Shown one piece after another: positions 2,541 to 18,496 of a DNA stretch of 64,000 nucleotides. The stretch is from positions 1,116,001 through 1,180,000 of the forward strand of contig NZ_CP113977.2 of the NCBI RefSeq assembly GCF_026870175.2, read 5' to 3'. Numbering within the stretch: the stretch's first letter is position 1; each line of letters starts with the position of its first letter. The stretch comes from Flavobacterium aestivum. Lineage in GTDB: Bacteria; Bacteroidota; Bacteroidia; Flavobacteriales; Flavobacteriaceae. Below the pieces are notes generated by a model. That model was not told the DNA's origin and made no database searches. It was given only the letters and a program-made list of their open reading frames with translations. A program made the position numbers and the translations under genes.

Positions 2541-2549
2541 TTTTGTAGT

Positions 2550-2681: not shown

Positions 2682-2749
2682 TTTGCAAATTTATTTAAAG
2701 ATTTACTCGAATTATTACGGTTTTCCGCATTGTTTAAACAGCATTTAAA

Positions 2750-3178: not shown

Positions 3179-3193
3179 ATTCTTCTATTTTAG

Positions 3194-3325
3194 TCAATAC
3201 TTAATTGGTTTGGTGTGAGCGAAATTCTTTGAAATTTCGATAGCTTCTTTTTTTAATCGTGCATCGTATTCGAATATCGTTTCCATTTTTCGGAGTGCTT
3301 TTTTTGGCATCTTTTTAGTATGCAT
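3194..3325 (-). CDS. Small basic ORF of 43 residues
   Basis: A short frame (MHTKKMPKKALRKMETI...) whose ATG overlaps the stop of the preceding gene in a TAATG arrangement at 3325. It ends 16 bases before the next gene. The overlap and the packing against both neighbours argue that it is translated. It is rich in Lys and has a predicted helix through FEYDARLKKEAIEI. No family is recognised. Confidence 0.5.
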   Translation of the reverse strand: MHTKKMPKKALRKMETIFEYDARLKKEAIEISKNFAHTKPIKY

Positions 3326-3642: not shown

Positions 3643-3643
3643 T

Positions 3644-3889
3644 TTACAAAGGTTTTGATATTTGTAAGACTACATATTCAGGGTCTAAACCCAAAACATC
3701 TTTAATGATATAATCTACCCGTCTTTTAATTTGACCACCGGTATATTTTTCCTTTTTTGGGTCAAATTCATTGAGTATTAGAAGGTCATTTTCTTGATAA
3801 TTCCGATCATTTTTTCGGACTTCTACTTTCTTTACCCCTAATAATACATCTTTGTAAAATTGAGGGTGAATTTTTAGTTCGTGGTTCAT
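3644..3889 (-). CDS. DUF3850 (ASCH/PUA-like) protein
   Basis: An 81-residue protein of the DUF3850 family. Visible family features are HELKIHPQFYKDVLLGVKKVEVRKNDRNY at the start, then NDLLILNEFDP and a closing strand YVVLQISKP. DUF3850 belongs to the ASCH/PUA fold, a small beta barrel linked to RNA or modified-base binding, and is common as a stand-alone protein in phage early regions. The K/R residues in the VRKNDRNY segment would face the nucleic acid in that fold. It lies two bases downstream of the 79-residue gene. The exact ligand is unknown. Confidence 0.8.
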   Translation of the reverse strand: MNHELKIHPQFYKDVLLGVKKVEVRKNDRNYQENDLLILNEFDPKKEKYTGGQIKRRVDYIIKDVLGLDPEYVVLQISKPL

Positions 3890-3891
3890 AA

Positions 3892-4131
3892 TTAAAAGAG
3901 TTGTAATTGTTGATTTTGTTGGTTTTGCTCCTTTTTTGACTTTAATTCTTTGAGTTCTTTTCGGGCATTTATACCTAAGTAAGTGTCGAAGGTGCGTTTA
4001 CTAATGTGAAATTGTTTCTCTATATACAAATGGAATATTTCTTTAAAAAACAGCCCTTGCTTGTTGTGATACAAAGCAATTTCCTGAATTTTTAAAACTT
4101 TTGTTAAGAAATTTTCTCGATTATAAGCCAT
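3892..4131 (-). CDS. Unknown small phage protein, translation start abutting a structured element
   Basis: A 79-residue protein with a helix-rich N-terminus (MAYNRENFLTKVLKIQEIALYHNKQG) and a Gln-rich C-terminus (EQNQQNQQLQLF). The segment HISKRTFDTYLGINARKEL could be a small DNA-binding unit, but this is a weak impression. Its ATG follows directly, by two bases, the 3' arm of the 54-bp inverted repeat at 4134-4187. The ribosome-binding region would therefore be inside the hairpin, and expression may be controlled by its folding. It is packed two bases before the DUF3850 gene. Confidence 0.55.
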   Translation of the reverse strand: MAYNRENFLTKVLKIQEIALYHNKQGLFFKEIFHLYIEKQFHISKRTFDTYLGINARKELKELKSKKEQNQQNQQLQLF

Positions 4132-4133
4132 TT

Positions 4134-4187
4134 AATACTATCTTTGGGGCCACACAACCGCCAAGTTGAGAGGCTCTAGATAGTATT
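4134..4187 (-). promoter_or_regulatory. Nested hairpin element directly upstream of a start codon
   Basis: Outer arms AATACTATCT (4134-4143) and AGATAGTATT (4178-4187) match perfectly over 10 bp. Inside them GGGGCC pairs with GGCTCT if G-U pairs are allowed, and CAAC pairs with GTTG around a six-base loop. Nearly all of the 54 bases are thus paired in one long stem. On the transcribed minus strand the last arm stops two bases before the ATG at 4131. It could be an RNA switch that hides the ribosome-binding site, a processing site or a protein-binding site. Confidence 0.55.
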
Positions 4188-4207
4188 ATTTAGGGCTTTT
4201 TTTATAC

Positions 4208-4615
4208 CTAATTATCAGATGGCTTCGGGATTCCTGTGGCATGATGCCAAGCTTTAGTCCCTGTTTTTTCTGCACTATTTTCATAGTTGGCTTTCAATGC
4301 ATGGAACTGTTTTGTTAAATCGTCCAACTCATCATAATCGTATGCATTAAGCGCTTTTTTATGAACAGAGGAGTTGATCATCCAATTATTGAATTTTGTC
4401 CAACTGTCAGCCTCTTTTATGCCCGTATGTGTGGCAAGCGTTAGAATAGTGCTTCGTTTGCGTTTCATAATCAACTCCATTTCTGCCGAAAGGGATTGTT
4501 CACTTTCCTTTTTTTGGGTTTCAACACGATTTTTGTTATTGAAATAGTTATTTACAGCACTATCCGAATCATTAAAAGTGTTGTAGATTCTGCTTTGTTT
4601 TTTCGGTTGTCTCAT
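4208..4615 (-). CDS. Unknown phage early protein, possibly GemA/gp16-like in position
   Basis: A 135-residue protein counted from the ATG at 4615. An earlier ATG at 4687 lies inside the preceding ATPase gene, so I chose the later one, which gives a two-base spacing. The N-terminus (MRQPKKQSRIYNTF) is basic. The C-terminal part has the segment GIKEADSWTKFNNWMINSS, then YDELDDLTKQFHALKANY and a final AWHHATGIP. The two-helix C-terminal part recalls regulators such as Mu gp16/GemA, also found late in the early operon, but I cannot confirm homology. Confidence 0.5.
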   Translation of the reverse strand: MRQPKKQSRIYNTFNDSDSAVNNYFNNKNRVETQKKESEQSLSAEMELIMKRKRSTILTLATHTGIKEADSWTKFNNWMINSSVHKKALNAYDYDELDDLTKQFHALKANYENSAEKTGTKAWHHATGIPKPSDN

Positions 4616-4616
4616 C

Positions 4617-5240
4617 TTAAAAAAGTTTTTGTTGAACTGGTGTGCTGTCTTTTTTATCCCAAATAACAAAGGGTTTATTTCCTCCAAAACGACTACGTGG
4701 GTGTGCTTTAAAGCTGTTTACATACACTTTGATGCAGGACATATATTCGATGTCTCGTGCAGCTTGATTCTTTGGCTTTTCATTCTTTGCCCAACTAACG
4801 ATAATGAATGATTTTTTAGGAAAGCTTTTGACAAGCAATTTGTATTGTTTAGTCGATAATTCAGAATAATCCTGACTATCAATAATTACAATTCTTGCAG
4901 AAGCTCTACGTTTTAACCTCGCTAAAAGTTCGTCAAAAGTACCACCTGTCATAAACATTACTTTGCCTTTTACTTCTTCCATGTTATTACGTTGGATAGC
5001 GGTTTGTAAAGATTTTGAATGACCTTGCTCATATGAGAAATAATCTGCTTTTACTTTGAATTTTAAGCATATTTCTTTAACGAACTTAACCACAAATTCT
5101 GTTTTACCGTGTCCAGAATCGCCAGTAACCGACATTTTGAAGTTCTTTTCAATCAAGCCGAAACTGTCTAACCATTCGCCTTCAATGTCGTATGTATCGA
5201 AGGACTTTTCTAGAAACTGTGTGATTCCGATTGCTTTCAT
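4617..5240 (-). CDS. P-loop ATPase of the phage early operon
   Basis: A 207-residue ATPase. It has a Walker A motif GDSGHGKTEF at residues 40-49 and a Walker B-like strand IVIIDSQD around 117-124. A third conserved-looking strand, SFIIVSWAKNEKP, holds a possible sensor residue. The fold order suggests a compact RecA/KaiC-like nucleotide-binding core with no added helicase domain. In Bacteroidetes transposable phages a second small ATPase next to DUF3164 is a recurrent companion of the transposition genes, as I recall. Its role may be DNA recombination or loading, and it is distinct from the MuB-like protein encoded upstream. The C-terminus QQKLF resembles a clamp-binding peptide (Qxx[L/M]xF-like), an observation only. 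Confidence 0.7.
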   Translation of the reverse strand: MKAIGITQFLEKSFDTYDIEGEWLDSFGLIEKNFKMSVTGDSGHGKTEFVVKFVKEICLKFKVKADYFSYEQGHSKSLQTAIQRNNMEEVKGKVMFMTGGTFDELLARLKRRASARIVIIDSQDYSELSTKQYKLLVKSFPKKSFIIVSWAKNEKPKNQAARDIEYMSCIKVYVNSFKAHPRSRFGGNKPFVIWDKKDSTPVQQKLF

Positions 5241-5245
5241 TTTTA

Positions 5246-5356
5246 CTAGTTTTCATTTTTTCGCTCCCGCTTACGACTCGAACGTAAGCGCATGCCTTTC
5301 GGGATTGTGTATTCAATTTTTACAAGCTTGAGAAGCTCAGAGAAACATCTTTCCAT
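5246..5356 (-). CDS. Possible 36-residue basic peptide overlapping the DUF3164 gene end
   Basis: A frame beginning MERCFSELLKLVKIEY and ending in a run of Arg/Lys (RLRSSRKRERKNEN). It starts 37 bases inside the end of the DUF3164 gene in another frame and stops five bases before the ATPase start. Phage operons often contain such coupled peptides, but the overlap makes a chance frame possible. Confidence 0.3.
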   Translation of the reverse strand: MERCFSELLKLVKIEYTIPKGMRLRSSRKRERKNEN

Positions 5357-5961
5357 CGGTTCTTATCGTCCTTGGTATAAACCCTCACATACTTCGCAGT
5401 TCCTACCACCACTAAGCAATCATTCAATTTGTCAAACTCATCCATCAAGGCTTCATCTCCTAATTCTTTAGCTTGACGGCGTGCCTTGTTTAATAATTTA
5501 GCATCATATTCGCCTTTTGAGTTTTTCATAAGAATGCTATCCAAAAGGTTATAAAAACCTTTATTTCTCGCCTCGAATTTGTCTCTAAAAATGTCCTTGA
5601 TAGCATTGATGTGTACAATGGCACTGTCGTTAAAATCAAACTTGTCTTGGTTTTCGACTACTATTTTTACACGGTCATTTTTAAGTTCGAAACTCTTAGC
5701 TTCTTTAACCGCTTTGTCTTCTAGATGATACTTCAAAGCATTGAAGTTTTCGGAGTGGCTAATCGTATCATTTTTAAGTGAGAATAGAATCTTTTTTACC
5801 TCTGTAAACTTTGTTGCAACCTCGTTTAAAAAGTTTTCTTTATCAGTATCATAAGCTTTTTTACGCTGTATTTGCTGTGATTGTTCTGCGGCTTCTTTTT
5901 GTTTTGCTAATTCTCTTAATTCTGATGCTGTCATTTCAGCAATTGGTTTCGTAGTTTCCAT
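5320..5961 (-). CDS. DUF3164 family protein
   Basis: A 213-residue protein of the DUF3164 family, which is found in Mu-like phages near the transposition genes. The N-terminal 60 residues are a charged helix (ELRELAKQKEAAEQSQQ). The family core follows, with INAIKDIFRDKFEARNKGF at about 118-136, then ILMKNSKGEYDAKLLNKARRQAKELGDEAL and the signature close LVVVGTAKYVRVY...WKDVSLSFSSL. The function of the family is not established. Its constant place in transposable-phage early operons suggests a role in replication, host takeover or regulation. It follows the small ORF region at 5975-6220. Confidence 0.85.
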   Translation of the reverse strand: METTKPIAEMTASELRELAKQKEAAEQSQQIQRKKAYDTDKENFLNEVATKFTEVKKILFSLKNDTISHSENFNALKYHLEDKAVKEAKSFELKNDRVKIVVENQDKFDFNDSAIVHINAIKDIFRDKFEARNKGFYNLLDSILMKNSKGEYDAKLLNKARRQAKELGDEALMDEFDKLNDCLVVVGTAKYVRVYTKDDKNRWKDVSLSFSSL

Positions 5962-6046
5962 TTTTCTTATTTTATTAATTAAAATTGTGTTCTATCAGTT
6001 CTAAAGTGTCGCCTTCTACTGGCCAGTGGGTGTCCACTTCTTTTAC

Positions 6047-6220
6047 TCATACTTTTATTGACATTAGTTGGTTTTCTTCGAGTTCTATTAGCTTGTTTAC
6101 ATAATAATCTCGACTGCGTTTTTTGTGAGTAAATTCAAAATGAATTCCTTTTTCGTTTGCAAAAAGCCAATCATTTAGTTCTTTAATTTTGGTTTCAAGC
6201 CATTGTTTTGATACTTTCAT
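6047..6220 (-). CDS. Small phage protein of 57 residues with an in-frame continuation after its TGA
   Basis: The frame starts MKVSKQWLETKIKELNDWLF and ends with ENQLMSIKV at a TGA (6047-6049). It follows the preceding 47-residue gene by five bases, which supports the start. The same frame then stays open for 23 more codons to a TAA at 5975-5977, encoding an ordinary-looking acidic tail that includes HWPVEGDTLELIEH. The gene may thus be an 81-codon ORF broken by a point mutation, or the TGA may be the true end. The protein looks like a helical phage protein with no known motif. Confidence 0.5.
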   Translation of the reverse strand: MKVSKQWLETKIKELNDWLFANEKGIHFEFTHKKRSRDYYVNKLIELEENQLMSIKV

Positions 6221-6225
6221 TAAGT

Positions 6226-6369
6226 TTAATTTTTACGTTTATTAATCCAGCTATTTAACTTTTCATTCCACTTTTCGGTTGCAATATCACCTCCAAAGGC
6301 TTTTACTATTTTTCCTTTTTTGTTTTTTACAATAAGGATTCGCTGTGTTGGGTTATAAACTGTTATCAT
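6226..6369 (-). CDS. Small basic phage protein of 47 residues
   Basis: The ATG overlaps the TGA stop of the MuB-like gene (ATGA), a strong sign of coupled translation. The protein begins MITVYNPTQRILIVKNKKGK, a likely beta hairpin, and ends with a Trp-containing helix (EKWNEKLNSWINKRKN). It would be basic and could bind nucleic acid. No family is recognised. Confidence 0.6.
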   Translation of the reverse strand: MITVYNPTQRILIVKNKKGKIVKAFGGDIATEKWNEKLNSWINKRKN

Positions 6370-7292
6370 AATGGGTATAAATCATTTAACATTGAGATGG
6401 TAACTTCTTGACCTGATATTTCAGCTTCTTCAAGTGCCGTGGTAATGATATTTTTAAGACTATCGAAGTCTTTTACACGTGCTTTAAGCCAGTTGATAGC
6501 AGGTTTGTTGATTATTCCTAATTCGTTGCAAATACATTCAATGTCTTCGCTAATTGATGGATCTAAGTTTGTCCATCCAAATGACCAGCGGCGATTAGTT
6601 TGTACAAAGCCATTTTTACGACTATCTGCTGCTTTTTTTAGCATTTTTTGCACATCAATACCAATAACCACTACTGAAGCATAGCCTTGTAATTCGTCTG
6701 CAATAGTTTTAACGGTTGGAATGTTGCCTGCTTTTGAGTTCTCGAATTCGTCAATAATCAATATTGGGTTATTACCTAGATTTTTGATTTTCTCACAAGC
6801 TCTTTTGATAATTGCGCCTTTAGTTCCTGTGGTGGTTACTCCAGCTTCAGTTGCCAAATTGATAGCAAACTCTTTTGAATTTTCTATGCCTGAACACTTA
6901 ACTAGGAATACATGTGCAGGATGTTTTCTTTTAAACATATCGGCCGCATAACTTTTGCCTAGTCCTGTATCACCATCAACTCCTAACCTGATTTTCTTTT
7001 CACGTGCTTTTTCAAAAGTGATAATCGATTGTTTGAAATTGAACGTATTGAAGTGTTGCCAATAGGTTTTTTCTAACTTAAAACCAATAACCAAAGCTAT
7101 TGCTTCATAATATTTGTCAGCAATTTTTGCTTTACCAATAAACTCATTAGATTTTGCTATTTGGTTCACGTAGGCTTTATCAATTCCTGCTAATTTTGCC
7201 AATGCCACCTGTGTAGTGGAGTTGTCCGATAAATACACTTCAATTGCTGAGGGTATTAGGTCTAGTTTTTGAATTTGTGTTAACTTTGCCAT
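6366..7292 (-). CDS. MuB-like AAA+ ATPase, transposition target-capture protein
   Basis: A 308-residue protein counted from the ATG at 7292 (MAKLTQIQKL). An ATG 24 bases earlier overlaps the transposase gene and is less likely. Residues 1-65 form a helix-turn-helix region (TTQVALAKLAGIDKAYVNQIA). An AAA+ domain follows, with Walker A GDTGLGKS at about 107-114, Walker B ILIIDEFEN at about 177-185 and an Arg-rich segment (NRRWSFGW) that may hold the arginine finger. MuB proteins bind target DNA as ATP-dependent filaments and deliver it to MuA. The place directly downstream of the transposase gene is the classical A-B order. The next small gene overlaps its stop. Confidence 0.85.
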   Translation of the reverse strand: MAKLTQIQKLDLIPSAIEVYLSDNSTTQVALAKLAGIDKAYVNQIAKSNEFIGKAKIADKYYEAIALVIGFKLEKTYWQHFNTFNFKQSIITFEKAREKKIRLGVDGDTGLGKSYAADMFKRKHPAHVFLVKCSGIENSKEFAINLATEAGVTTTGTKGAIIKRACEKIKNLGNNPILIIDEFENSKAGNIPTVKTIADELQGYASVVVIGIDVQKMLKKAADSRKNGFVQTNRRWSFGWTNLDPSISEDIECICNELGIINKPAINWLKARVKDFDSLKNIITTALEEAEISGQEVTISMLNDLYPL

Positions 7293-7303
7293 AGATTTAA
7301 AAT

Positions 7304-9475
7304 TTAAGCCGACCATTCAGAGCTATTAAAGTCTCTATTTACTCTCTGTTTGGTCGTATTTTTAAGGTTAGTATTCTCGTTATTTATTTGATTTTTATTA
7401 TAAGATTCTTTATTGCCACCAAGTGCGATGCTATGCTCATAGCTTAATCCTTCCATTACTTCATTAAGTGAAGTTTCGAAATCATCGATATACTCAGTTT
7501 GTTTTGCTTTGCGTCCTTTCAAGTGTCCTAAAGCATTGGTTTTTTGTTCGTCCATTTCAGCATGAGATTGTGAAGTCCCAATCGATCTAGGACAACTCAT
7601 TATAAATTTTTCATCCAGTGTGTATAAATCAGCAAAGGTTTCATCCCATACTACTTTTACCTGAGCGCCTGTGGTGTAACCTGTAGCTTTAGCAATCAAT
7701 TCAGTCCCTACGCCTCCAAATTGTGGTATTTCGAACTGGAATAACTCACTATCACTGTATCCTTTGGTACGATAAACATTTACATATCCTCGCATATAAC
7801 TTACATCTACTTTGGTATGCTTAGCAAACAAATAGCGCATTACTATTGGTTCAAGCGGTTGGCAATTTGGGTGTTTAATTGCGAAGCGTTCTACAGGCGC
7901 AACACCATCACGTAGTTTGGTAGCATTCCAACGCTTAATAAGTTCATGCATCTGAATTACAGCATCATCATAGGTCGGCATATCATCGATATTGATATGA
8001 TCAGGATTTGCCTGACCTTCTAAACCAGTTCCCCATGATGTTGAAAGGAAGTTTTGAATGTCTTTTAAACTGCGTTTAAACAAACGGAATTGAGTTTCTG
8101 CAGGGTTTGCTTGTGAATTACCCGCTTCAATGGTTCTTACTTTGTTGAAAGCAAGATTTAAGAATGATTTGCTTTCTTTTGAAGTAAATGCTCCGTGGTT
8201 ATCAGAAATAAACTCGAACATCGTTTGATTGCCTCCGTTTTCAATAGCCATTTTAACAGCTGCTTTAGTCATAGCTTCAGTTTCTTTGTGAGAACCTACA
8301 GGAGCAACGGACCAACCCGCAATGTGTCTACTTGCTACATCAGTAATAAGAATTACATATAGTTTCATTGTATGCCACTTGCCGTCAGCTTTTTTATACT
8401 TGTAGTTGATAGTTCCTGAACCATCACCCGCAAATAATGAGTGTGCGTATTGTAATCTTTCTGTAGTTACGTATGTTTGAACGTGCTTTTTGTAATAGTC
8501 TTCACCGTGACGCGCTCTAGCTGTTTTGATTTGTGAGCTAAAACGGGTCAAATGATGACAAAAAGTACGATAGGCTACAGGCTGTAAGTCAAATTCTTGA
8601 ACATCTTCGCAATAATCACGCTCCCAAAGTGTGCGGATATATTCTTTTGACGAACCGCCAGGATTCATATACAGATGAAACATCATAGCCTGATGTATAT
8701 CAAACTGGTAAATTTGACCTGTGCTTTCGTCAATTAAAGGGAATTTACCCACTATTTGGGCGTTGTCATTTCCATATTTACCCGAAATAAAGAACTTCAA
8801 TTGTTCGATTGTATCGCCTGTAAATGGAAACTCATTTATCTTATTGCGTAAATAGGCAGGAGAATTGATTTTAAAACCTTCCAGTTCCAGCGGTGCCAAC
8901 ATATCAGTACACACTTGGTAGAAGTCCTGTTTTTTATTGATTCCAAGTAACTTGAAGTTATCATTAAACAATTGTTTCATTATCCAAATGCACCAAGCAC
9001 GTCCAGTCGCCATTTGTTCGGCTTGTTTTTGATTGAAGCCTACAATTGCACTGTACATGTAATAAGTAATGTCAGTATTGTCAATGAACGTGTTTACTTG
9101 CGCTTGGATAGCGTTTTTTAATTGATTTTGCTTGTTAGATTTATCAGCACTTTGCAGAGCCTCATACGCTTGTAGAAGCTCATGCTTTGCGCCAAATTTT
9201 GAACGGTAGTGAGTTGGTTTGCGATCAGGTAAACAATCGTAGTCGTAGTAAAACGTCCCGTTTGCTTTGCCCCAACGCCAAGCACTTCCTGTATTGGGTA
9301 AAAAGTCGCCGTATTTATAGCCTTTTTGGATTGATTTTTTGAATAGTGCTCTAGCACGTGTTCTTAAATATTCTTCTGTTACTTGACAAATTTGTAATAC
9401 CAAGCGTTGCGAAACCCATAAGGTTTCACCGTCTTTGTAATTACGTATAATGATGTCTTGGGGTAACAGTTGCAT
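7304..9475 (-). CDS. MuA-like DDE transposase
   Basis: A 723-residue transposase that would cut and join the phage ends during integration and replicative transposition. An N-terminal DNA-binding region covers about 1-120. The RNase H-like catalytic core has the DDE triad at D351 (FAGDGSG), D425 (ISDNHGAF) and E460 (ANPAETQFRLFK). A C-terminal beta-barrel and a charged tail follow. The length and layout match MuA-type transposases of Bacteroidetes phages. The N-terminus reads like an end-binding helix-turn-helix (VSQRLVLQICQVTEEYLRTRAR). It is preceded by a 59-residue gene nine bases upstream and followed 11 bases later by the MuB-like gene, forming the head of the early operon under the repressor. 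Confidence 0.93.
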   Translation of the reverse strand: MQLLPQDIIIRNYKDGETLWVSQRLVLQICQVTEEYLRTRARALFKKSIQKGYKYGDFLPNTGSAWRWGKANGTFYYDYDCLPDRKPTHYRSKFGAKHELLQAYEALQSADKSNKQNQLKNAIQAQVNTFIDNTDITYYMYSAIVGFNQKQAEQMATGRAWCIWIMKQLFNDNFKLLGINKKQDFYQVCTDMLAPLELEGFKINSPAYLRNKINEFPFTGDTIEQLKFFISGKYGNDNAQIVGKFPLIDESTGQIYQFDIHQAMMFHLYMNPGGSSKEYIRTLWERDYCEDVQEFDLQPVAYRTFCHHLTRFSSQIKTARARHGEDYYKKHVQTYVTTERLQYAHSLFAGDGSGTINYKYKKADGKWHTMKLYVILITDVASRHIAGWSVAPVGSHKETEAMTKAAVKMAIENGGNQTMFEFISDNHGAFTSKESKSFLNLAFNKVRTIEAGNSQANPAETQFRLFKRSLKDIQNFLSTSWGTGLEGQANPDHINIDDMPTYDDAVIQMHELIKRWNATKLRDGVAPVERFAIKHPNCQPLEPIVMRYLFAKHTKVDVSYMRGYVNVYRTKGYSDSELFQFEIPQFGGVGTELIAKATGYTTGAQVKVVWDETFADLYTLDEKFIMSCPRSIGTSQSHAEMDEQKTNALGHLKGRKAKQTEYIDDFETSLNEVMEGLSYEHSIALGGNKESYNKNQINNENTNLKNTTKQRVNRDFNSSEWSA

Positions 9476-9484
9476 TCGTACGAA

Positions 9485-9664
9485 TTAGTTGATTAACATT
9501 TTTTCTAATTCTGCAAACTTTTCCATGATTAGTTTGGCAGCAACTGATTCTTGTTTTCTTTCGTTTGTCACTACTTTTTTGCAATAAACTTTACTCTTAC
9601 CTGTCATACTATGAAGCAGTTCCCAAGTTTTAAATTTTCTCGCTTGTTCAATTAATATGCTCAT
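9485..9664 (-). CDS. First gene of the early operon, 59 residues, unknown
   Basis: The frame begins MSILIEQARKFKTWELLHSMTGKSK and ends AELEKMLIN, nine bases before the transposase start. It directly follows the divergent promoter/operator region, the place occupied by ner in Mu. The segment FKTWELLHSMTGKSKVYC could form a small DNA-binding fold, but no helix-turn-helix is clear. A Ner-like regulator is a guess from position. Confidence 0.55.
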   Translation of the reverse strand: MSILIEQARKFKTWELLHSMTGKSKVYCKKVVTNERKQESVAAKLIMEKFAELEKMLIN

Positions 9665-9680
9665 ATCTTAAAATTTATTA

Positions 9681-9712
9681 TACATTTGTATCGTTAGAGT
9701 GATACAAATATA
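9681..9712. promoter_or_regulatory. Prophage operator with divergent -7 boxes
   Basis: A perfect 9-bp inverted repeat, ATTTGTATC (9684-9692) and GATACAAAT (9701-9709), with an 8-base spacer. Its arms include a plus-strand TACATTTG box (9681-9688) and a minus-strand TATATTTG box (9705-9712), both fitting the Bacteroidota -7 pattern TAnnTTTG. A repressor dimer here would cover both the repressor promoter and the early promoter. I did not find clear -33 partners. Confidence 0.7.
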
Positions 9713-9757
9713 GATATTTTTCAATACTAATTAATAAAAACATAGACTTATTTCAAT

Positions 9758-10633
9758 ATGAGTATAGAAAAAATTACACATAGGTTATGTAAATACATGG
9801 AATACAAAGGATTGAATCCTAACAATATTACCGTTGACGCAGGCTTATCTGTAGGATTAATTGGTAAAGCCATTAAGAATTCAGCTGGTTTGAACTCAGA
9901 TACTATAGAAAAAATTCTACATTCTTATATAGACTTAAATCCTATTTGGTTTGTTTTAGGAGAGGGTGAGATGTTAAAACCAAATGTGCAGGATATGTCA
10001 CACTTTGAAAATGTCACAAAAACTGTCACATTTTCGGAAGAAACGAAAAATAAAGAAAATGTATCACTTTTAGTAAATGAGGACAAATCTGTTTTGTCTA
10101 GCAAAATGCCAAAGATTGTTACTGTAAGTGAAAGCGGGAAGGATAATGTAGTACTGGTACCTACTAAAGCTGCAGCTGGGTATTTATTAGGTTATGGAGA
10201 TCCACACTTTGTACAGACATTACCAACCTTTAGTTTGCCAAATATTCAGAATGGTACTTTTAGAATGTTTCAAGTATCAGGTCATTCTATGTATCCAACT
10301 TTAAACGATGGGTCTTATGTAGTTGGTGAATGGGTAGAGAATTGGATTAAAGACATAAAAGACAATCGTATATATGTGATTGTCAGTAATGATGGTATTC
10401 TTGTTAAGCGTGTTTTAAACCGTTTGAAAAAATATGACAATTTATATTTGAAATCAGATAATAGAAAGGAGTATCCTAATATATCTCTAGAGACATATCA
10501 TATAAAAGAAGTCTGGGCTGTAAAAATGCACCTTTCTTTTGAATTACCTGACCCAACCGTATTATATGACCGTGTAGGGGACTTAGAAGCTGAAATCGAC
10601 CATATAAAATCACTTTTAAAAAGCAAAAATTAA
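9758..10633 (+). CDS. Prophage repressor, helix-turn-helix plus S24 LexA-like peptidase
   Basis: A 291-residue CI-type repressor. The N-terminal 60 residues form a helix-turn-helix domain (NNITVDAGLSVGLIGKAIKN). A linker of about 70 residues leads to an Ala-Gly pair (A140-G141, KAAAGYLLG), a plausible autocleavage site. The S24 peptidase core follows, with the serine in SGHSMYPT (S177) and the lysine in GILVKRVL (K217). A short coiled coil closes the protein (LYDRVGDLEAEIDHIKSLL). It would keep the prophage silent and cleave itself upon RecA activation. It is divergent from the early operon with the 9684-9709 palindrome between them, and it is the last phage gene before the junction. Confidence 0.9.
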   Translation: MSIEKITHRLCKYMEYKGLNPNNITVDAGLSVGLIGKAIKNSAGLNSDTIEKILHSYIDLNPIWFVLGEGEMLKPNVQDMSHFENVTKTVTFSEETKNKENVSLLVNEDKSVLSSKMPKIVTVSESGKDNVVLVPTKAAAGYLLGYGDPHFVQTLPTFSLPNIQNGTFRMFQVSGHSMYPTLNDGSYVVGEWVENWIKDIKDNRIYVIVSNDGILVKRVLNRLKKYDNLYLKSDNRKEYPNISLETYHIKEVWAVKMHLSFELPDPTVLYDRVGDLEAEIDHIKSLLKSKN

Positions 10634-10753
10634 ACCATTCATTTGACTAACTTTAATTTTCGACCTTTTTTATTAAAGAAGAATTAAACCTTTTTAAACC
10701 TTTTTTAGTATTAATGTCTTAGTTTATAGTGTATGTTTGGTATTGCCCCTAAT
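10634..10753. repeat. Terminal segment of the prophage with short repeats
   Basis: This non-coding stretch between the repressor and the host junction contains tandem TTAAACCTTTTT units near 10684-10706. The end of a transposable phage should hold transposase-binding sites, and such repeats are candidates. A TG/CA terminus at the junction is not obvious. Confidence 0.45.
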
Positions 10754-11017
10754 AATCCGTTGCTTTATAGTGACTTCCAGGCTTTTTATATAATAACCTT
10801 TGCCAAGAATGGCATAGATAATTCCTCTTTTTTTTAATTCTTCATAGGCTTGTAATACCGTGTCTCGAGATAAAGAAAAGGCTATGCAGACTTTATTTAT
10901 AGAAGGTAATTTTTCATCTTTTTTCAGTTTTTTATCCTCGATTGCTTTTTCAACAGAGTAAACTATTTGTTTGTATTTAGGTATTCCTAGATTATTCTGA
11001 ATTGAGATTATTTTCAT
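10724..11017 (-). pseudogene. GntR-family regulator of the gal cluster, cut off by the prophage
   Basis: The frame starts MKIISIQNNLGIPKYKQIV and contains a complete GntR winged helix: KLPSINKVCIAFSLSRDTVLQAYEELKKRG and GKGYYIKS. It ends after 97 codons. Family members of this type in Flavobacterium run to about 340 residues with a LacI-like sugar-binding domain, starting FLLFDE right after the KQRI position. Here the family sequence stops at KQRI and the last nine codons are phage DNA. The remaining part should lie past the other prophage end, outside the window. A start 29 codons upstream is open but would overlap the operator. The protein may still bind DNA but cannot sense sugar. Confidence 0.8.
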
Positions 11018-11050
11018 AAAATAATATTTTTTTGCAATATACGAAAAAAA

Positions 11051-11066
11051 ACCGGTAGGTACCGGT
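11051..11066. promoter_or_regulatory. Palindromic operator between gntR and galM
   Basis: The 16-bp near-palindrome ACCGGTAGGTACCGGT (14 of 16 positions symmetric) is GC-rich in an AT-rich spacer and lies midway between the two divergent starts. GntR-type dimers bind such sites. A TATTTTTG -7 box at 11089-11096 lies between it and galM. Confidence 0.65.
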
Positions 11067-11120: not shown

Positions 11121-12170
11121 ATGGAAATAAAAAACATACCGCATTTTATTATGGATTCTACAGCAGAATTGTTTGGAATATTGCCTAATGACGTTGCTGT
11201 TCATTCTTATGAATTAGTTAATAAAAATGGAATGCAAGTAAAAATTATTAATTATGGAGCGACAGTGACATCATTAAAAATTCCATTGGAAGATGATAAA
11301 ACAGTTGATGTTGTTTTAGGATTTGACAATTTAGAGGCATACCTAAAATCATTCGATTTAGAAAGTGCACCATATTTGGGAGCAACGGTTGGCAGATATG
11401 CAGGTCGCATCAATAATGGTACTTTTGAACTGAATGGTAAAGTATATGGTCTGAATATCAATAACAATAAACATGCTCTTCATGGCGGTTTTTTAGGTTT
11501 CAGTAAAGTGGTTTGGGAAGTTAAAGCCATAAAGCAAGAGGATAATCCATCGATAACTTTAGTGTATGAAAGTCAAAATAATGACGAAAATTATCCGGGA
11601 GATTTATCAGTAGAGTTAACATATAAGTTGTCTGAAGAAAATGAATTGATTATTGAATATCGTGCTACATCTACAGAAGATACAATTGTAAACCTAACCC
11701 ATCACAGTTATTTTAATTTAGATGGGCACAATTCAGATGTTTCTAACTTAGAAATGAGTGTGAATTCTAAAGAAATTTTAGAAACTACAGATGAGAATAT
11801 CCCAACTGGTAAGTTTTTAGATGTTACTAATTCATTTTTTGATTTTTCATCATTCAAAAATTGCCCAGCTAAAATTGATACTACTTTTATTTTAAATCAA
11901 GGAAAGGATTTAGCAGCTTCTCTTTTTAGCAAAAAGAACAAGTTAAAAATGTCTGTTTATACAGATCAACCAGCTGTTCATGTTTATGTTGGAGGAAATT
12001 GTGAAGACATTCATGGAAAAGAAGATGTGTTTTACCATTCTTTAAGTGGTATTTGTTTTGAAACCCAGAATTTTCCGGATGCTCCTAATCACAAGCATTT
12101 CCCGAGTTCAGTTCTAAAGAAGAACGCAGTCTATGAGCATAAAACCACATATAAATTTGAAATTCTTTAA
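11121..12170 (+). CDS. galM: Aldose 1-epimerase (galactose mutarotase)
   Basis: A 349-residue mutarotase that interconverts the beta and alpha anomers of D-galactose before galactokinase. Family motifs are INYGATVTSLKIP near the N-terminus, GRYAGRI, the His-containing LHGG segment, the catalytic HHSYFNLDG, and the Glu-containing GICFETQNFPDAPNH near the C-terminus. I chose the ATG at 11121 because family members start near this MEIKNIPHF segment. An earlier in-frame ATG at 11067 overlaps the operator. There is no signal peptide, so it is cytoplasmic. It is the first gene of the galactose cluster, 37 bases before the alpha-galactosidase gene. Confidence 0.93.
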   Translation: MEIKNIPHFIMDSTAELFGILPNDVAVHSYELVNKNGMQVKIINYGATVTSLKIPLEDDKTVDVVLGFDNLEAYLKSFDLESAPYLGATVGRYAGRINNGTFELNGKVYGLNINNNKHALHGGFLGFSKVVWEVKAIKQEDNPSITLVYESQNNDENYPGDLSVELTYKLSEENELIIEYRATSTEDTIVNLTHHSYFNLDGHNSDVSNLEMSVNSKEILETTDENIPTGKFLDVTNSFFDFSSFKNCPAKIDTTFILNQGKDLAASLFSKKNKLKMSVYTDQPAVHVYVGGNCEDIHGKEDVFYHSLSGICFETQNFPDAPNHKHFPSSVLKKNAVYEHKTTYKFEIL

Positions 12171-12207: not shown

Positions 12208-14406
12208 ATGAAAAAAATAATACTTCTATTAGCACTTACAACCTTGTTTTGTGAAGCTAATGCGCAAGATGGACAAATTCAGATTGAAACTCAAAGTACT
12301 GCTTTGATTTTGAAAGCAGGAAAGAATGGCTTGCTTTATCAAGCCTATTTGGGAACAAAGCTAAAAGGGAATTCAGGATACAATACACTTTCAAAGGAAA
12401 ACACAAAAACATTTGTTATAAATGATGGAAATCCGTTGGTTAATTTAAGGCACCAAGCGTATCCAACATATGGAACTGACAACTTATTTGAGTCTGCTAT
12501 TAGAATGACTCATAATGATGGGAATCCATCTCTGGAATTAACGTATGTAAGTCATCGTACAGAAAAAATTGATGCTAATACCACAGAAACTATTATAAAA
12601 CTAAAAGACCAAGTGTATCCAGTAGAAGTGACGCTTCATTATAAAGCTTTTTACAATGAAAACGTGATTGAGCAATGGACAGAAATTCAGCATCACGAAA
12701 AGAAACCGGTTATGTTATATAACTATGCGTCTTCTATGTTGCATTTTGATGCAGATCGCTATTGGTTAACTCAATTTCATGGAGATTGGGCCAAAGAAGT
12801 TCGCATGCAGGAAAGTGAATTGACTAGCGGTACGAAAGTTATTGACTCAAAATTAGGAGTTCGTAACAATATGTACCAAACACCAGTTTTCTTTTTATCT
12901 CTTAACTCTAAAGCCGATGAAAATTCAGGAGAACTTGTGGCAGGAACGATTGCATGGTCGGGAAATTTTAAGTTAGCTTTTGAGTTAGACAATAAAAATT
13001 CACTTAGAATAAGTTCAGGGATAAACCCATTTGCTTCAGAATACAGTCTTCAGCCAGAAAAAGTATTTACTACACCTTCATTTATTTATACTTTTTCTAA
13101 TAAAGGAAAAGGGCAGGCGAGTAGAAACTTACATACATGGGCTAGAAAATATGGAATTAAAGATGGTGAAAAAACCCGTTTGACATTGTTAAACAATTGG
13201 GAAACGACCTTTTTTAATTTTGATGAAAAGAAATTGACAGATATGTTTACGGATTCAAAAACGCTAGGTGTTGACATGTTCTTATTAGATGATGGTTGGT
13301 TTGGGAATAAATATCCTAGAAGTGGAGATAAATCCGGTCTAGGAGATTGGCAAGCTACTAAAACAAAATTGCCTAATGGTATTGGTTTCTTGATGCAAGA
13401 AGCTGAGAAAACAGGAATAAAATTCGGAATTTGGATCGAGCCGGAGATGGTTAATCCTAAGAGTGAATTATATGAAAAACATCCGGATTGGGTTTTAAAA
13501 TTGCCTAATAGACCAGAAAGTTATTATCGTACTCAATTGGTTCTGGATTTATGTAATCCGCAAGTGCAAGATTTTGTATTCAAAACTGTAGATGACATTA
13601 TGCAAACTAATTCAGGTGTAGCCTTTTTTAAATGGGACTGTAACCGAATGATGACTAGCGCCTATTCAACTTATCTTAAGAATCAACAATCACATTTATT
13701 TATTGAATATACAAACGGTTTATATAAAGTTTTAGACCGAATTAAAACAAAATATCCGAATCTGCCTATGATGCTTTGCTCAGGTGGAGGAGGAAGAACG
13801 GATTATGCTTTCCTGAAATATTTTACAGAGTTTTGGGCAAGTGATAATACAGATCCGTACAATAGAGTCTTCATACAATGGGGGTATTCTCAGTTCTTTC
13901 CAGCCTTTTCAATTTGTAATCACGTAACATCATGGGGTAATCAATCCATTAAGTTCAAAACCGACGTTGCCATGATGGGTAAATTAGGATTTGATATTAA
14001 TGTGAAAGAACTTAAAGAGAAAGAACTGAAGTACTGCCAGGATGCTGTTGCTAATTATAAGCGATTGAGTCCAGTAATTTGGCATGGTGACATGTACAGA
14101 ATTATCTCTCCTTATGATGAAAGCCGTGCAGTATTGATGTATGTTAACGAGGCAAAAAGTAAGGCAGTGATGTTTTCTTATACATTACATCCGCTTTATG
14201 ATCCACAATATAACGCTGTTCGCTTTCAAGGTTTAGATCCAAATAAAACTTATAAAGTAGAGGAAATAAACTTGATGCCAGAAGGCAAAAAATCTTTCGA
14301 AGAATCTGGGGAATCATTTACAGGAGATTATTTAATGAATGTTGGTTTACGAGTTTCTTCATCTAAGGTAGAAACGAGTGTTGTTCTAGAAGTTACGGAA
14401 ATATAG
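12208..14406 (+). CDS. Alpha-galactosidase, glycoside hydrolase family 36, exported
   Basis: A 732-residue enzyme that removes alpha-linked galactose from oligosaccharides such as melibiose or raffinose. A signal peptide (MKKIILLLALTTLFCEANAQ) points to the periplasm. An N-terminal beta-sandwich is followed by the catalytic barrel with LLDDGWFG, GIWIEPEMVNP, the nucleophile motif FFKWDCN (D477) and the acid/base motif ASDNTDP (D546). A C-terminal beta domain closes it. This layout is standard for GH36. It lies between galM and galK in the galactose cluster, so released galactose would be imported by the downstream symporter. Exact substrate preference cannot be read from the sequence. Confidence 0.93.
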   Translation: MKKIILLLALTTLFCEANAQDGQIQIETQSTALILKAGKNGLLYQAYLGTKLKGNSGYNTLSKENTKTFVINDGNPLVNLRHQAYPTYGTDNLFESAIRMTHNDGNPSLELTYVSHRTEKIDANTTETIIKLKDQVYPVEVTLHYKAFYNENVIEQWTEIQHHEKKPVMLYNYASSMLHFDADRYWLTQFHGDWAKEVRMQESELTSGTKVIDSKLGVRNNMYQTPVFFLSLNSKADENSGELVAGTIAWSGNFKLAFELDNKNSLRISSGINPFASEYSLQPEKVFTTPSFIYTFSNKGKGQASRNLHTWARKYGIKDGEKTRLTLLNNWETTFFNFDEKKLTDMFTDSKTLGVDMFLLDDGWFGNKYPRSGDKSGLGDWQATKTKLPNGIGFLMQEAEKTGIKFGIWIEPEMVNPKSELYEKHPDWVLKLPNRPESYYRTQLVLDLCNPQVQDFVFKTVDDIMQTNSGVAFFKWDCNRMMTSAYSTYLKNQQSHLFIEYTNGLYKVLDRIKTKYPNLPMMLCSGGGGRTDYAFLKYFTEFWASDNTDPYNRVFIQWGYSQFFPAFSICNHVTSWGNQSIKFKTDVAMMGKLGFDINVKELKEKELKYCQDAVANYKRLSPVIWHGDMYRIISPYDESRAVLMYVNEAKSKAVMFSYTLHPLYDPQYNAVRFQGLDPNKTYKVEEINLMPEGKKSFEESGESFTGDYLMNVGLRVSSSKVETSVVLEVTEI

Positions 14407-14529: not shown

Positions 14530-15699
14530 ATGAATGATATATTAATAAAAAAAACAACTGCCTTTTTCGAAGAAACTTTTAGCTCTTCACCTGAAAAAAT
14601 GGTGCTTTCTCCAGGGAGAATAAACATTATAGGCGAACATATTGATTATAATGACGGATATGTTTTACCTGCGGCAATTGATAAAATCATCTGTTTTGCT
14701 TTCGAAAAAAACAATTCAAAACAATCCAAAATAATTGCTATAGATTTGGATGATGAATTTGAAATTGATCTTACAAAGACCGTTGAATTAGATGAAAAAG
14801 TTTGGACCAATTATTTCCGAGGAGTTATTAATCAATTGAAGATAAGTGGATTTTCTTTTGAAGGATTCAATTGTGTTTTTAGCAGTAATATTCCGGTTGG
14901 TTCAGGATTGTCCTCTTCTGCAGCTTTAGAATGTGGCTTTCTATATGGAATTAATTCTCTTTTTAATTTGAACATAAAACCAATCGATATTGCCTTAATG
15001 AGTCAAAAGGCAGAGCATTGGGTTGGTATCAATTGCGGAATAATGGATCAGTTTTCGAGCGTTATGGGCTTAGAGAATAAAGTTATAAAGATTGATTGCA
15101 AGACATTAGATTTTGAATATCATGATGCCAATTTCAATGATTATTCTTTGATTTTATTTGATAGTAATGTTAAGCATTCATTGTTTACCTCGGCTTATAA
15201 CACAAGAAGAGAGGAATGTGATGAAGGACTTTCAATAATCAAAAAACATTTCCCGGAAATAAACAGTTTTAGAGATTGTTCGGAAAAACATGTGCTGAGT
15301 TTGGAAGATAAAATGAGTTCAGAAGTATTTAAAAGAAGTCATTTTGTAGTAAAAGAAATAGGACGTGTCACAAAAGCATGCGAAGCATTAGATAAAGGAG
15401 AAATCGAAGTTTTAGGACAACTGATGTTTGAAACGCATCATGGGTTATCGTCAGAGTATGAAGTAAGTTGTGCCGAGTTAGACTTTTTGGTGGATACTGC
15501 AAAGAAAGAAAACTCAGTAATAGGATCTAGATTAATGGGAGGCGGCTTTGGTGGTTGTACCATAAACTTGATTCAGAAAGGGCAGGAAGATATTATAAAA
15601 GCAAAAGTCTCTAAATTGTATTTTGAGACTTTTAATATAGAATTGAAAATTTATGATGTAAAGATTGGAAATGGTACATCATTGTATAATAGGAATTAA
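14530..15699 (+). CDS. galK: Galactokinase
   Basis: A 389-residue GHMP kinase that phosphorylates alpha-D-galactose to galactose 1-phosphate with ATP. The galactokinase signature is complete (GRINIIGEHIDYNDGYVLP at about 28-46). The ATP-binding motif is PVGSGLSSSAALE and the third GHMP motif is LMGGGFGGCTINL near the C-terminus. Length is typical of the family. The gene follows the alpha-galactosidase by 123 bases with no recognisable terminator between, and its stop codon touches the start of galT. It acts in the cytoplasm as the first committed step of the Leloir pathway. Confidence 0.97.
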   Translation: MNDILIKKTTAFFEETFSSSPEKMVLSPGRINIIGEHIDYNDGYVLPAAIDKIICFAFEKNNSKQSKIIAIDLDDEFEIDLTKTVELDEKVWTNYFRGVINQLKISGFSFEGFNCVFSSNIPVGSGLSSSAALECGFLYGINSLFNLNIKPIDIALMSQKAEHWVGINCGIMDQFSSVMGLENKVIKIDCKTLDFEYHDANFNDYSLILFDSNVKHSLFTSAYNTRREECDEGLSIIKKHFPEINSFRDCSEKHVLSLEDKMSSEVFKRSHFVVKEIGRVTKACEALDKGEIEVLGQLMFETHHGLSSEYEVSCAELDFLVDTAKKENSVIGSRLMGGGFGGCTINLIQKGQEDIIKAKVSKLYFETFNIELKIYDVKIGNGTSLYNRN

Positions 15700-16779
15700 A
15701 TGAAGAATTTTGATATAAATGAAGATCCGCACAGACGCTTTAACCCATTAATTAACGAATGGGTTTTGGTTTCACCACATCGTGCGAAACGTCCTTGGCA
15801 AGGACAAAACGAAGCTGTTGCTTTTGAAACATTGCCTGAATATGACCCAGAATGTTATTTATGTGCAGGGAATGTCCGAGCTAATGGGATGGTAAATCCT
15901 GCGTATGAAGATTGTTTTGTTTTTGAAAATGATTTTGCTGCCTTAAAGCAGGATGAAATAGCATTTGAAGTAGAAACAAAAGACCCAATTTCTGGAGAGC
16001 AAGCGAAGCCAACTTTTTTCAAGGCACAACCAGAGAGAGGTATTTCGAGAGTGGTATGTTTTTCACCAAAACATAATTTGACATTACCAGAGATGAGCGT
16101 CAAGGCTATTGAAAATATTATTCATACTTGGCAAATGGAATATACCTCTTTGGGGAAAATAGATTATATCAATCACGTTCAGATTTTTGAAAACAAAGGA
16201 AGTATCATGGGGTGCAGTAATCCGCATCCTCATGGGCAAATTTGGGCGCAGTCGTCCTTGCCAACTTCAGTAGAAAAAACACAGAATAATCTAAAAGCCT
16301 ATTATGATAAATATGGCAGCAATCTTTTGCAGGATTATTTGCAGGAAGAGTTGAGGCTGAATGAAAGAATTGTTATTGAGAACGATCATTTTGTGGCTTT
16401 AGTTCCTTTTTGGGCCATTTGGCCTTTTGAAACTATGATTATCAGCAAACGTCATATTTTGAAAATTACGGATTTTACAGCAGCAGAAACTTATGCTTTT
16501 GCAACAATCCTAAAACAATTAACCACTAAATACGATAATCTTTTTAAGACATCGTTTCCATACTCATCAGGAATTCATCAAGCTCCAACAGATGGTGAGT
16601 TACATTCGGAATGGCAATTTCATATGCATTTTTATCCACCATTATTACGTTCAGCATCAGTAAAGAAGTTTATGGTAGGTTATGAAATGCTTGGCGAATC
16701 ACAAAGAGATATCACACCGGAAAAAAGTGTTGAAATCTTAAAGAGTCAGTCCGAAATTCATTATAAACAATTAGTATAA
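15700..16779 (+). CDS. galT: UDP-glucose:hexose-1-phosphate uridylyltransferase (galT)
   Basis: A 359-residue enzyme that swaps UMP between UDP-glucose and galactose 1-phosphate. The N-terminal RFNPLINEWVLVSPHRAKRPW motif and the zinc-site cysteines C52 and C55 (CYLC) are present. The active-site HPH motif (SNPHPHGQIWA) places the nucleophile at H178. A C-terminal HxH-type region (HMHFYPPLL) completes the HIT-like pair. The ATG follows the galK stop directly, so the two genes are coupled. No galE is seen in this window, so UDP-galactose epimerase must be encoded elsewhere. Confidence 0.97.
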   Translation: MKNFDINEDPHRRFNPLINEWVLVSPHRAKRPWQGQNEAVAFETLPEYDPECYLCAGNVRANGMVNPAYEDCFVFENDFAALKQDEIAFEVETKDPISGEQAKPTFFKAQPERGISRVVCFSPKHNLTLPEMSVKAIENIIHTWQMEYTSLGKIDYINHVQIFENKGSIMGCSNPHPHGQIWAQSSLPTSVEKTQNNLKAYYDKYGSNLLQDYLQEELRLNERIVIENDHFVALVPFWAIWPFETMIISKRHILKITDFTAAETYAFATILKQLTTKYDNLFKTSFPYSSGIHQAPTDGELHSEWQFHMHFYPPLLRSASVKKFMVGYEMLGESQRDITPEKSVEILKSQSEIHYKQLV

Positions 16780-16807: not shown

Positions 16808-18496
16808 ATGAAAACATTGCAATTATATGATTACCTAGTTTTTTTATTTTATTTCTTTGTAGTCGCAGGATATGGATATTCGGTTTATAGACGTAAGAAG
16901 AGTGCTAAATTAACTGCCTCTCACGACTATTTTTTGGCTGAGGGATCTTTGACTTGGTGGGCTATCGGAACTTCATTGATAGCTTCGAACATTTCTTCTG
17001 AACAGTTTATAGCCATGTCTGGAAATGGTTTCAAAATGGGATTAGCTATCGCTACTTATGAGTGGATGGCTGCAGCCACACTGATAATTGTCGCTATCTT
17101 TTTTATTCCAGTTTACTTAAAGAATAAAATCTATACGATGCCTCAGTTTTTGAGCGAAAGATACAATGGAAGCGTTGCCATGATTATGGCTGTTTTCTGG
17201 TTGCTATTGTATGTAATTGTAAACTTAACTTCAATACTTTATTTGGGGGCATTGGCCATTAATGGAATTTCCGGTATTAATGTTGATTTGTGCATGTATG
17301 GATTGGCATTTTTTGCAATTATAATTGCTTTGGGAGGAATGAAAGTGATTGGATATACTGATGTTATTCAGGTTGTGTTTTTGATTTTTGGAGGTTTGGT
17401 AACAACTTATTTAGCCTTAGACAAAGTGGCCGAATTAAACGGACAAAGCGGTATGGTAAATGGATTCAATTACATGATGAATCAATCTGGAGATCATTTT
17501 CATATGATATTCAAAAAAGACAACGCAAACTTTCCTAGTTTACCGGGATTAACAGTATTGTTTGGAGGTATGTGGATCGTGAATTTAAATTACTGGGGTT
17601 GTAATCAATATATTACTCAAAGAGCTTTGGGGGCTGATTTAAAAACAGCACGTGGTGGAATTTTGTTTGCTGCTTTCTTAAAATTATTGATGCCAGTTAT
17701 AGTTGTTTTACCAGGTATTGCCGCTTACGTAATTCATATGAAAGGCGGATTGCAAACAGAATTGTTAGGAGCAGATGGTGTATTGAACCCAGACAGAGCT
17801 TATCCTGTATTACTAAACTTATTACCAGTTGGATTAAAAGGACTTTCTTTTGCAGCACTGACCGCAGCAGTTGTTGCGTCATTGGCAGGGAAAGTAAACA
17901 GTATTTCGACCATTTTTACTTTGGATATCTTCAAGAAAAAAATTCAAGTAGATGCCAGCGAAAAGAAAATGGTACGAGTAGGGAAAATAACTGTTGTTGT
18001 GGCTATGTTAATTGCAGTTGTAATTGCACCTTTTTTAGGAATTGATAAAAAAGGAGGATTTGAATTTATTCAGGAATATACCGGATTTGTAAGTCCTGGT
18101 ATTTTCGCGATGTTTATTATGGGATTCTTCTGGAAAAAGACCAGTTCAAACGCAGCAATGTTTGCTACAATAGGAGGTTTTGTATTATCAGTATTTTTTA
18201 AATTCTTGCCAAGATTTATGAATTTAGAATTTTTGAATAGTACCGGATTTGCTGTTTTGGTAGAGCAAAAGGATAAAACAATGGCTTATGAAATTCCTTT
18301 TATTGATAGAATGGGGTTTGTATTTGCAATATGCGTTTTATTGATGATTGTGATTAGTATAATCGATAACAGGAGAGGTGTTGCTGTAAAAGGATTAGAA
18401 GTAGATACAAAAATGTTTAAGATCAACAACGGTTTCGCCGTAGGTTGTATGATTATAACCGGGATTCTAGTCGCGTTATATTCAATTTTTTGGTAA
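16808..18496 (+). CDS. Sodium/sugar symporter, SSS family (vSGLT-like)
   Basis: A 562-residue inner-membrane protein with about 14 hydrophobic segments. Family motifs are the N-terminal ASHDYFLAEGSLTWWAIGTSLIASNISSEQFIAMSG region, the GGMKVIGYTDVIQ helix and the WGCNQYITQRALGA segment. They match the sodium/solute symporters that carry glucose or galactose, such as vSGLT. It closes the galactose cluster 28 bases after galT, so galactose is the likely substrate, driven by the sodium gradient. A terminator follows at 18536-18570. Substrate specificity is inferred from context. Confidence 0.9.
   Translation: MKTLQLYDYLVFLFYFFVVAGYGYSVYRRKKSAKLTASHDYFLAEGSLTWWAIGTSLIASNISSEQFIAMSGNGFKMGLAIATYEWMAAATLIIVAIFFIPVYLKNKIYTMPQFLSERYNGSVAMIMAVFWLLLYVIVNLTSILYLGALAINGISGINVDLCMYGLAFFAIIIALGGMKVIGYTDVIQVVFLIFGGLVTTYLALDKVAELNGQSGMVNGFNYMMNQSGDHFHMIFKKDNANFPSLPGLTVLFGGMWIVNLNYWGCNQYITQRALGADLKTARGGILFAAFLKLLMPVIVVLPGIAAYVIHMKGGLQTELLGADGVLNPDRAYPVLLNLLPVGLKGLSFAALTAAVVASLAGKVNSISTIFTLDIFKKKIQVDASEKKMVRVGKITVVVAMLIAVVIAPFLGIDKKGGFEFIQEYTGFVSPGIFAMFIMGFFWKKTSSNAAMFATIGGFVLSVFFKFLPRFMNLEFLNSTGFAVLVEQKDKTMAYEIPFIDRMGFVFAICVLLMIVISIIDNRRGVAVKGLEVDTKMFKINNGFAVGCMIITGILVALYSIFW

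Follow-up and report, generated by a model that had tools for sequence, protein, structure and literature searches.

The best match to the prophage considered here is Flavobacterium phage fF4 (MN850656; Winoviridae), likewise a Mu-like flavobacterial myovirus, with which it has in common genes for a repressor, DDE transposase, ATPase, portal, Mu F-like head protein, terminase, protease and DNA methylase (PMC7761591). The transposase matches at 46.5% over 95% of the query, and the genomes measure 31,958 bp in fF4 and 35,538 bp here. According to the description of fF4, GemA was not detected, ORF14 is Mor-like, the genome ends could not be sequenced and one phage sequence is present in the draft genome of the host; the role of transposable phage in the diversity of F. 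columnare is named there as a point needing study (PMC7761591). The present phage, in contrast, occurs in two copies, and both of its ends, its inverted repeats and a 4-bp target duplication are defined. If the assembly is right, the case bears, for a phage related to fF4, on that question of diversity as well as on the unsequenced ends. Hankyphage of Bacteroides is also listed as a near system by its description (PMC12135933); the transposase matched 11 phage records, and hankyphage is not one of them, the names listed being fF4 and Porphyromonas phages.

Intramolecular replicative transposition of Mu leads either to an inversion between inverted copies or to a deletion, and the inversion has been observed with mini-Mu in Corynebacterium (PMC5847225). 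There, too, inverted copies bound an inverted segment after a single intramolecular event, but the system was a laboratory construct with induced MuAB, whereas the present element is a complete, naturally occurring prophage of a flavobacterium, with a 4-bp duplication. Similarly, DMS3 polylysogens of Pseudomonas aeruginosa gained additional copies of the phage and underwent extensive chromosomal changes through transposition within the lysogen, although these were deletions and duplications seen in populations of evolved lysogens, and the word 'inversion' is absent from the main text (PMC11406979). A literature search of limited scope found no inversion of this kind by a natural Mu-like phage. 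The type of event is already known, and the present genome is a clear natural case.

For the regulator gene that is cut, a described counterpart is AraR of Bacillus subtilis, a GntR/LacI-type chimera whose C-terminal region has effector binding and dimerisation and whose isolated DNA-binding domain of 88 residues has been crystallised on operators (4egy and others; PMC4218819). The intact regulator of 332 aa has the same architecture, a GntR winged helix (PF00392) followed by a GalR/LacI-type sensor (Peripla_BP_3), and its PDB matches cover the DNA-binding part only (within residues 6-86).

In this context, we analyzed a stretch of 64,000 bases, here called the window, at positions 1116001-1180000 of a single-contig genome of 4,580,707 bases (completeness 100), which from its phage and gene relatives we take to belong to a flavobacterium, probably of the genus Flavobacterium. 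In this one assembled genome the locus shows, to the base, the scar that a transposable phage has left in nature: the phage doubled, cut two regulatory genes and appears to have moved a segment of 0.58 Mb containing the origin (Table 1).

Table 1. Features of the prophage, the cut regulator gene and the adjoining gal cluster.
Feature	Location	Strand	Details
Prophage copy A, right-hand part	window 1..10754	+	whole copy A at genome 1091217-1126754, 35,538 bp
Prophage copy B	genome 514771-479234	inverted relative to A	35,538 bp; no difference from A after trimming host bases
MuB-like ATPase	window 6366..7316	-	AAA_22 41.6 bits; PHROG 'DNA transposition protein' 5e-24
DDE transposase, 723 aa	window 7304..9475	-	PHROG transposase 7.5e-23; rve 32.2 against a cut-off of 32.6; 46.5% to phage fF4
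Repressor-like protein	window 9758..10633	+	Peptidase_S24 domain
Truncated gntR	window 10724..11017	-	88 host codons with winged-helix domain, nine phage codons (IRGNTKHTL), then stop
Right terminal inverted repeat	window 10730..10754	-	19/25 positions match the left end (counted by eye from the alignment)
Target duplication ATCC, 4 bp	window 10755..10758		partner at copy B left end, genome 514772-514775; copy A left end has AGAT
Putative operator-like palindrome ACCGGTAGGTACCGGT, 16 bp	window 11051..11066		between gntR and galM
galM, aldose 1-epimerase	window 11121..12170	+	domain search
GH36 family protein (Melibiase; probable alpha-galactosidase)	window 12208..14406	+	domain search
galK, galactokinase	window 14530..15699	+	domain search
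galT, galactose-1-phosphate uridylyltransferase	window 15700..16779	+	domain search
Sodium:solute symporter (SSF)	window 16808..18496	+	domain search

The prophage and the cut regulator gene

The domain search bears out the original prediction that a Mu-like prophage interrupts gntR behind its DNA-binding domain. The fragment starts with an ATG at window position 11017 and runs for 97 codons to a stop codon at 10724-10726. Its PF00392 match is kept (residues 14-77, 39.6 bits against a cut-off of 27), and the host part ends after KQRI, past the winged helix, where the nine codons of phage DNA follow. The right end of the phage lies at 10754, and the last base of codon 88 is phage-derived with Ile kept. 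The tail IRGNTKHTL and its stop are common to both cut host proteins, which run in the same frame into the right end of a phage copy (window 10724-10754 and genome 479234-479264).

Further PHROG matches identify a portal (1e-25) and a minor head protein and DNA pilot, the Mu F-like head gene (5.3e-23); the candidate capsid protein has no PHROG match. Taken together with sheath and tape-measure genes, the portal and head genes are in keeping with a Mu-type myovirus. At 1e-60 the transposase is matched in 3 of 398 same-genus genomes, namely the own genome with its two copies, G261 and G385. Searches of other collections, from which the own genome may be absent, gave one more locus among genome contigs, three among viral contigs and the 11 phage records, with fF4 as the best match. 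At the left end of the prophage (genome 1091925-1093561), a lipoprotein-like ORF of 413 aa and a membrane-like ORF of 134 aa, labelled from a reading of the sequence, are possible cargo.

Two copies with crossed ends

A 56-base stretch of the prophage right end recurs once in the genome, at 479233-479288 on the other strand, and a BLAST comparison of both prophage regions yields a single match of 35.5 kb. The perfect identity of the copies is consistent with a recent event and equally with gene conversion.

The rest of gntR had been expected at the far end of the same prophage, next to a 5-bp target duplication. Neither was found there. The C-terminal half lies 612 kb from the N-terminal half, at genome 514772-515511 on the plus strand, where it starts at the left end of the second, inverted copy. 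That the distal half should be missing beyond the far prophage end had been named as speaking against the prediction; this is literally so, but the half is present at copy B, in frame and with a matching 4-bp duplication. Its open frame of 269 aa contains the sensor domain Peripla_BP_3 at positions 79-166, barely above the cut-off (26.9 versus 26.5 bits). The two domains that relatives have in one frame are thus divided, the fragment in the window having only GntR and the C half Peripla_BP_3.

The second cut gene encodes a TPR-histidine kinase (HK) of about 682 aa and adjoins a response regulator (PF00072). Its N-terminal half lies at the right end of copy B (genome 478779-479233) and its C-terminal half beyond the left end of copy A (1089622-1091216). 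When the halves are rejoined in silico, both genes are in frame, with 332 aa for gntR and an open frame of 687 aa for the kinase. In 27 of 60 other genomes the HK gene has a match of at least 55% identity that spans 660 or more of the 682 residues, and a similar full-length kinase with 36% identity is located at 2646660-2648660. Directly upstream of the cut HK gene there is a small secreted-looking protein with two GSGGQDSGGHRKAD motifs (locus L002, about 680-945).

The target duplications are crossed in the same manner as the gene halves. The four bases flanking the ends are AGAT at A-left, ATCC at A-right, ATCC at B-left and AGAT at B-right, so that the pairs at the same copy differ (ATCC/AGAT and AGAT/ATCC) while both crossed pairs match (ATCC/ATCC and AGAT/AGAT). 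For two 4-mers to match by chance at the local base composition the probability is about 3e-5. Mu itself duplicates 5 bp of its target. Insertions of the phage are available at three unrelated sites, gntR (ATCC), the HK gene (AGAT) and G261 (CGGT), the last being a prophage whose transposase matches at 82%, whose first 16 bases at the left end are identical and which has CGGT on both sides. Four bases fit all three sites, five fit two of the three with one mismatch at gntR. The longer duplication was rejected: it suits the HK gene and G261, whereas at gntR it yields AATCC/GATCC. There G087, the closest relative found, has the base of the left copy, and the extra A is hence assigned to the phage. 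G136 carries the other base at this fifth position, and a single later point mutation could still save the 5-bp reading.

We also considered whether the C-terminal half at 514.8 kb might be an unrelated paralogue of gntR. This was rejected, as N- and C-terminal identities are broadly similar across 20 relatives (for instance 84/81% and 85/77%; largest gap 84/73%), and the 332-column alignment of the joined protein with 20/20 relatives, together with the matching duplication, also speaks against it. Three further Peripla_BP_3 genes elsewhere in the genome all have full-length frames.

The uninterrupted arrangement in relatives

The comparison with a close relative proposed in the original prediction proved informative: G087, with a gntR 96% identical, has both gntR and the HK gene whole, collinear and with empty sites. 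Across the gntR breakpoint, positions 1142000-1126755 followed by 514771-530998 match G087:C7 65920-91738 over about 26 kb, with gaps, and across the HK breakpoint 474706-479234 followed by 1091216-1088906 match G087:C22 413720-406881 over about 7 kb. Separate from this, a local rearrangement is seen where 1075000-1079804 matches C22 405197-400422 in the opposite direction.

Whether a short gntR is common in the genus was decided by a survey of 249 same-genus genomes with the N-terminal 88 codons as query (E <= 1e-20). It gave matches in 132 genomes, own included, and in 129 of the 131 others the open frame has at least 331 aa; the exceptions are G048 (122 aa, contig edge) and G274 (frameshift). 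A 97-codon gntR, whose presence in close relatives without the prophage the original prediction had named as speaking against it, was found in none of these 131 genomes, and truncation of gntR is not the family norm. Two further surveys used the full protein. At E <= 1e-120, a threshold that would conceal truncated forms, 128 of the 249 genomes match, own included, and among the 127 others 125 have matches over 330 residues or more, except G117 (contig edge) and G274 (frameshift near residue 80). At E <= 0.001, a set of 80 genomes, namely the own one, 48 same-genus and 31 same-order genomes, gave matches in 35, some through distant paralogues or the DNA-binding domain only; 24 of the 48 same-genus genomes cover at least 330 of 332 residues with 62-82% identity, the match in G048 comprises residues 1-98 and lies at a contig edge, and G031 yields no more than pieces and distant paralogues.

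Two relatives carry altered copies of their own. G210 has a full-length gntR (64%) and a second, shorter copy (G210:C1:1659672-1660175; 78% over 168 residues) with a stop after about residue 165, which adjoins SusC/SusD genes; no match to the present phage was found within 20 kb of it. The frameshifted gntR relative of G274 (G274:C1:4015624-4016618) is disrupted near residue 80, close to the phage cut site here, and adjoins full-length galM, galK and galT matches.

The neighbourhood was compared at 20 of the 24 full-length same-genus loci. The immediate divergent neighbour of gntR is galM in 16/20, and galM or galK is found on the promoter side in 18/20. In 13 loci the palindrome has a near match 30-40 bases away from the start of gntR, while the other seven have no match at the same threshold. 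SusC- or SusD-like matches on the distal side, with 24-34% identity, occur in 6/20 loci, and the tight arrangement in G087 only, so that the idea of an uptake operon always adjoining gntR was rejected.

The segment and the replication origin

The cumulative GC skew between 340 and 1280 kb has its minimum at 812,375. Samples beyond this range show positive skew between 1.45 and 3.05 Mb, whereas from 3.25 Mb round to 0.28 Mb the values are negative or close to zero, although some single 20-kb windows on both arms have the opposite sign. The 16S genes, five in number, are all encoded on the minus strand, in the stretch from 3.38 to 0.36 Mb. Taken together, GC skew and the five co-oriented 16S genes place the origin near 0.81 Mb and the terminus near 3.1-3.25 Mb. 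The dnaA gene, at 4.42 Mb, is away from the skew minimum, and no DnaA-box clusters were found at the minimum.

The segment of 576 kb between the copies extends 297.6 kb and 278.8 kb to either side of the skew minimum, so that the two arms differ by 18.8 kb (3.3%). If the second site were placed uniformly, it would fall this near the mirror point with a probability of about 0.008, a value computed post hoc for one case. Owing to this near symmetry about the origin, the skew is uninformative on which orientation of the segment is older. Most rearrangements are near and symmetric to the origin, and surviving inversions tend to symmetry (PMC12863080).

How the arrangement arose

The two copies, their identity, the crossed gene halves and the crossed duplications are seen in the assembly, with an intact, collinear relative for comparison. 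We think it moderately probable that one intramolecular replicative transposition of an fF4-like Mu-type prophage produced the two inverted copies and the 576-kb inversion, cut both genes and abolished inducer control. The prophage would have resided first in gntR or in the TPR-histidine-kinase gene, in either order, and would then have entered the other gene by intramolecular replicative transposition. This single step would create two identical inverted copies and invert the host segment between them (genome 514772-1091216, with the skew-defined origin), leaving the halves of each cut gene at different prophage copies. We prefer it as the simplest account because it explains identity, orientation, crossing and two cut genes at once.

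Long identical inverted repeats are good substrates for recombination, and two separate insertions in opposite orientation, by double infection or by transposition in trans, followed by RecA-type homologous recombination between the 35.5-kb copies, would lead to the same crossed junctions and duplications. The segment between the copies may then flip back and forth in the population. Repeat-mediated inversions by homologous recombination are known in Citrobacter rodentium (PMC3072379). On the other hand, this path takes two or three events instead of one, and immunity of the lysogen, given the repressor-like gene, should hinder a second infection; we regard it as unlikely, if by no means far-fetched. 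It is also conceivable, but rather unlikely, that there is no inversion: two ordinary insertions, in gntR and in the HK gene, each gene interrupted by one prophage, for gntR as the original prediction had it, with the flanks mis-joined through the wrong copy of the repeat. The four phage-host junctions are local, only reads that exceed the phage in length could pair them over 35.5 kb, and either isomer closes as one circle; in S. aureus, an inversion between inverted repeats was missed by standard Illumina sequencing (PMC6778178). The single contig of 4,580,707 bases with completeness 100 argues against mis-joining, as long reads were probably used. So does the near-mirror placement, which for a uniform second site arises by chance in about 0.8% of cases, yet is favoured among surviving inversions (PMC12863080).

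If the inversion did arise by a single transposition, the symmetry might have a more direct cause than selection. The phage could have jumped while both sites were being replicated, when the two forks were equidistant from the origin and spatially close, which would yield an origin-symmetric inversion directly. We consider such fork-coupled transposition highly improbable as things stand; if true, it would contribute to the X-shaped pattern that appears when bacterial genomes are compared.

Consequences for the galactoside locus

The original prediction described the operator palindrome and the complete gal cluster next to gntR as intact. For the gal genes, judged by their domains, and for the palindrome this holds; the SusC/SusD operon, a direct neighbour of gntR in G087 and partly so in G136, is now elsewhere. 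The genes of G087 are arranged as symporter-galT-galK-GH36-galM, gntR, SusC-SusD-two genes, and ACTGGTAGGTACTGGT precedes SusC. G136 has a SusD match 3' of gntR and no SusC before the contig end, and G257 has no SusC/SusD match on the distal side. At the displaced locus, SusC is identified by TIGR04056 and a Plug domain and SusD by Pfam, and the two genes 3' of SusD match nothing in Pfam or NCBIfam.

The palindrome ACCGGTAGGTACCGGT is the sole perfect match in the genome to ACCGGTANNTACCGGT; with up to two mismatches there are 8 places, versus 5 for the reversed control. The span 10724-11066 given in the original prediction comprises the gntR fragment and this palindrome. A variant of it, ACTGGTAGGTACTGGT, is found at genome 516187-516202, upstream of SusC, and the gap between gntR and galM in G087 has no match of at least 15/16 to the palindrome. 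The gene order in G087 and the same ACTGGTAGGTACTGGT 16-mer before SusC in both genomes indicate that the gal and SusC/SusD loci were once a single locus. On the motif, G087 and part of G136, the SusC/SusD operon would belong to the same regulon as the gal genes. A locus for galactoside use that forms a single unit in G087, the closest relative found, is thus split into regulator and catabolic genes on one side and the uptake operon on the other.

Under the single transposition that we favour, the event would have removed the sensor and dimerisation part of the regulator and parted galM-GH36-galK-galT-symporter from the SusC/SusD operon with its similar operator-like sequence. The remaining DNA-binding fragment of 88 residues would most likely be unable to regulate properly. 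Loss of regulation is to be expected because AraR dimerises and binds its effector through the part that is lost here, and by this analogy inducer control is likely lost at both half-loci. The effector of the present regulator would presumably be galactose-related, judging from the gal neighbours. Since the isolated AraR domain binds operators in crystals, the gntR fragment may keep some activity.

Whether expression would be constitutive or low depends on whether the regulator represses, a point to which our literature search, limited in scope, gave no answer. Whichever way the arrangement arose, the fragment of 97 residues could act as an inducer-blind repressor, with the gal genes permanently off instead of released. 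The intact promoter side of gntR with its palindrome, and the crystals of the 88-residue AraR domain on operators, are in keeping with this effect. It nevertheless seems distinctly unlikely, given that the C-terminal part of AraR dimerises (PMC4218819), so that a monomeric fragment should bind the palindrome weakly, and that the nine-codon phage tail may destabilise the fragment. The locus offers a ready natural test of a GntR/LacI-type regulator reduced to its DNA-binding domain.

Downstream of the gal cluster, at window 18558-20263, follows a pair of genes with Peptidase_S24 and IMS domains, which we take to be UmuD/UmuC-like; the same neighbours adjoin the gal cluster in G136.
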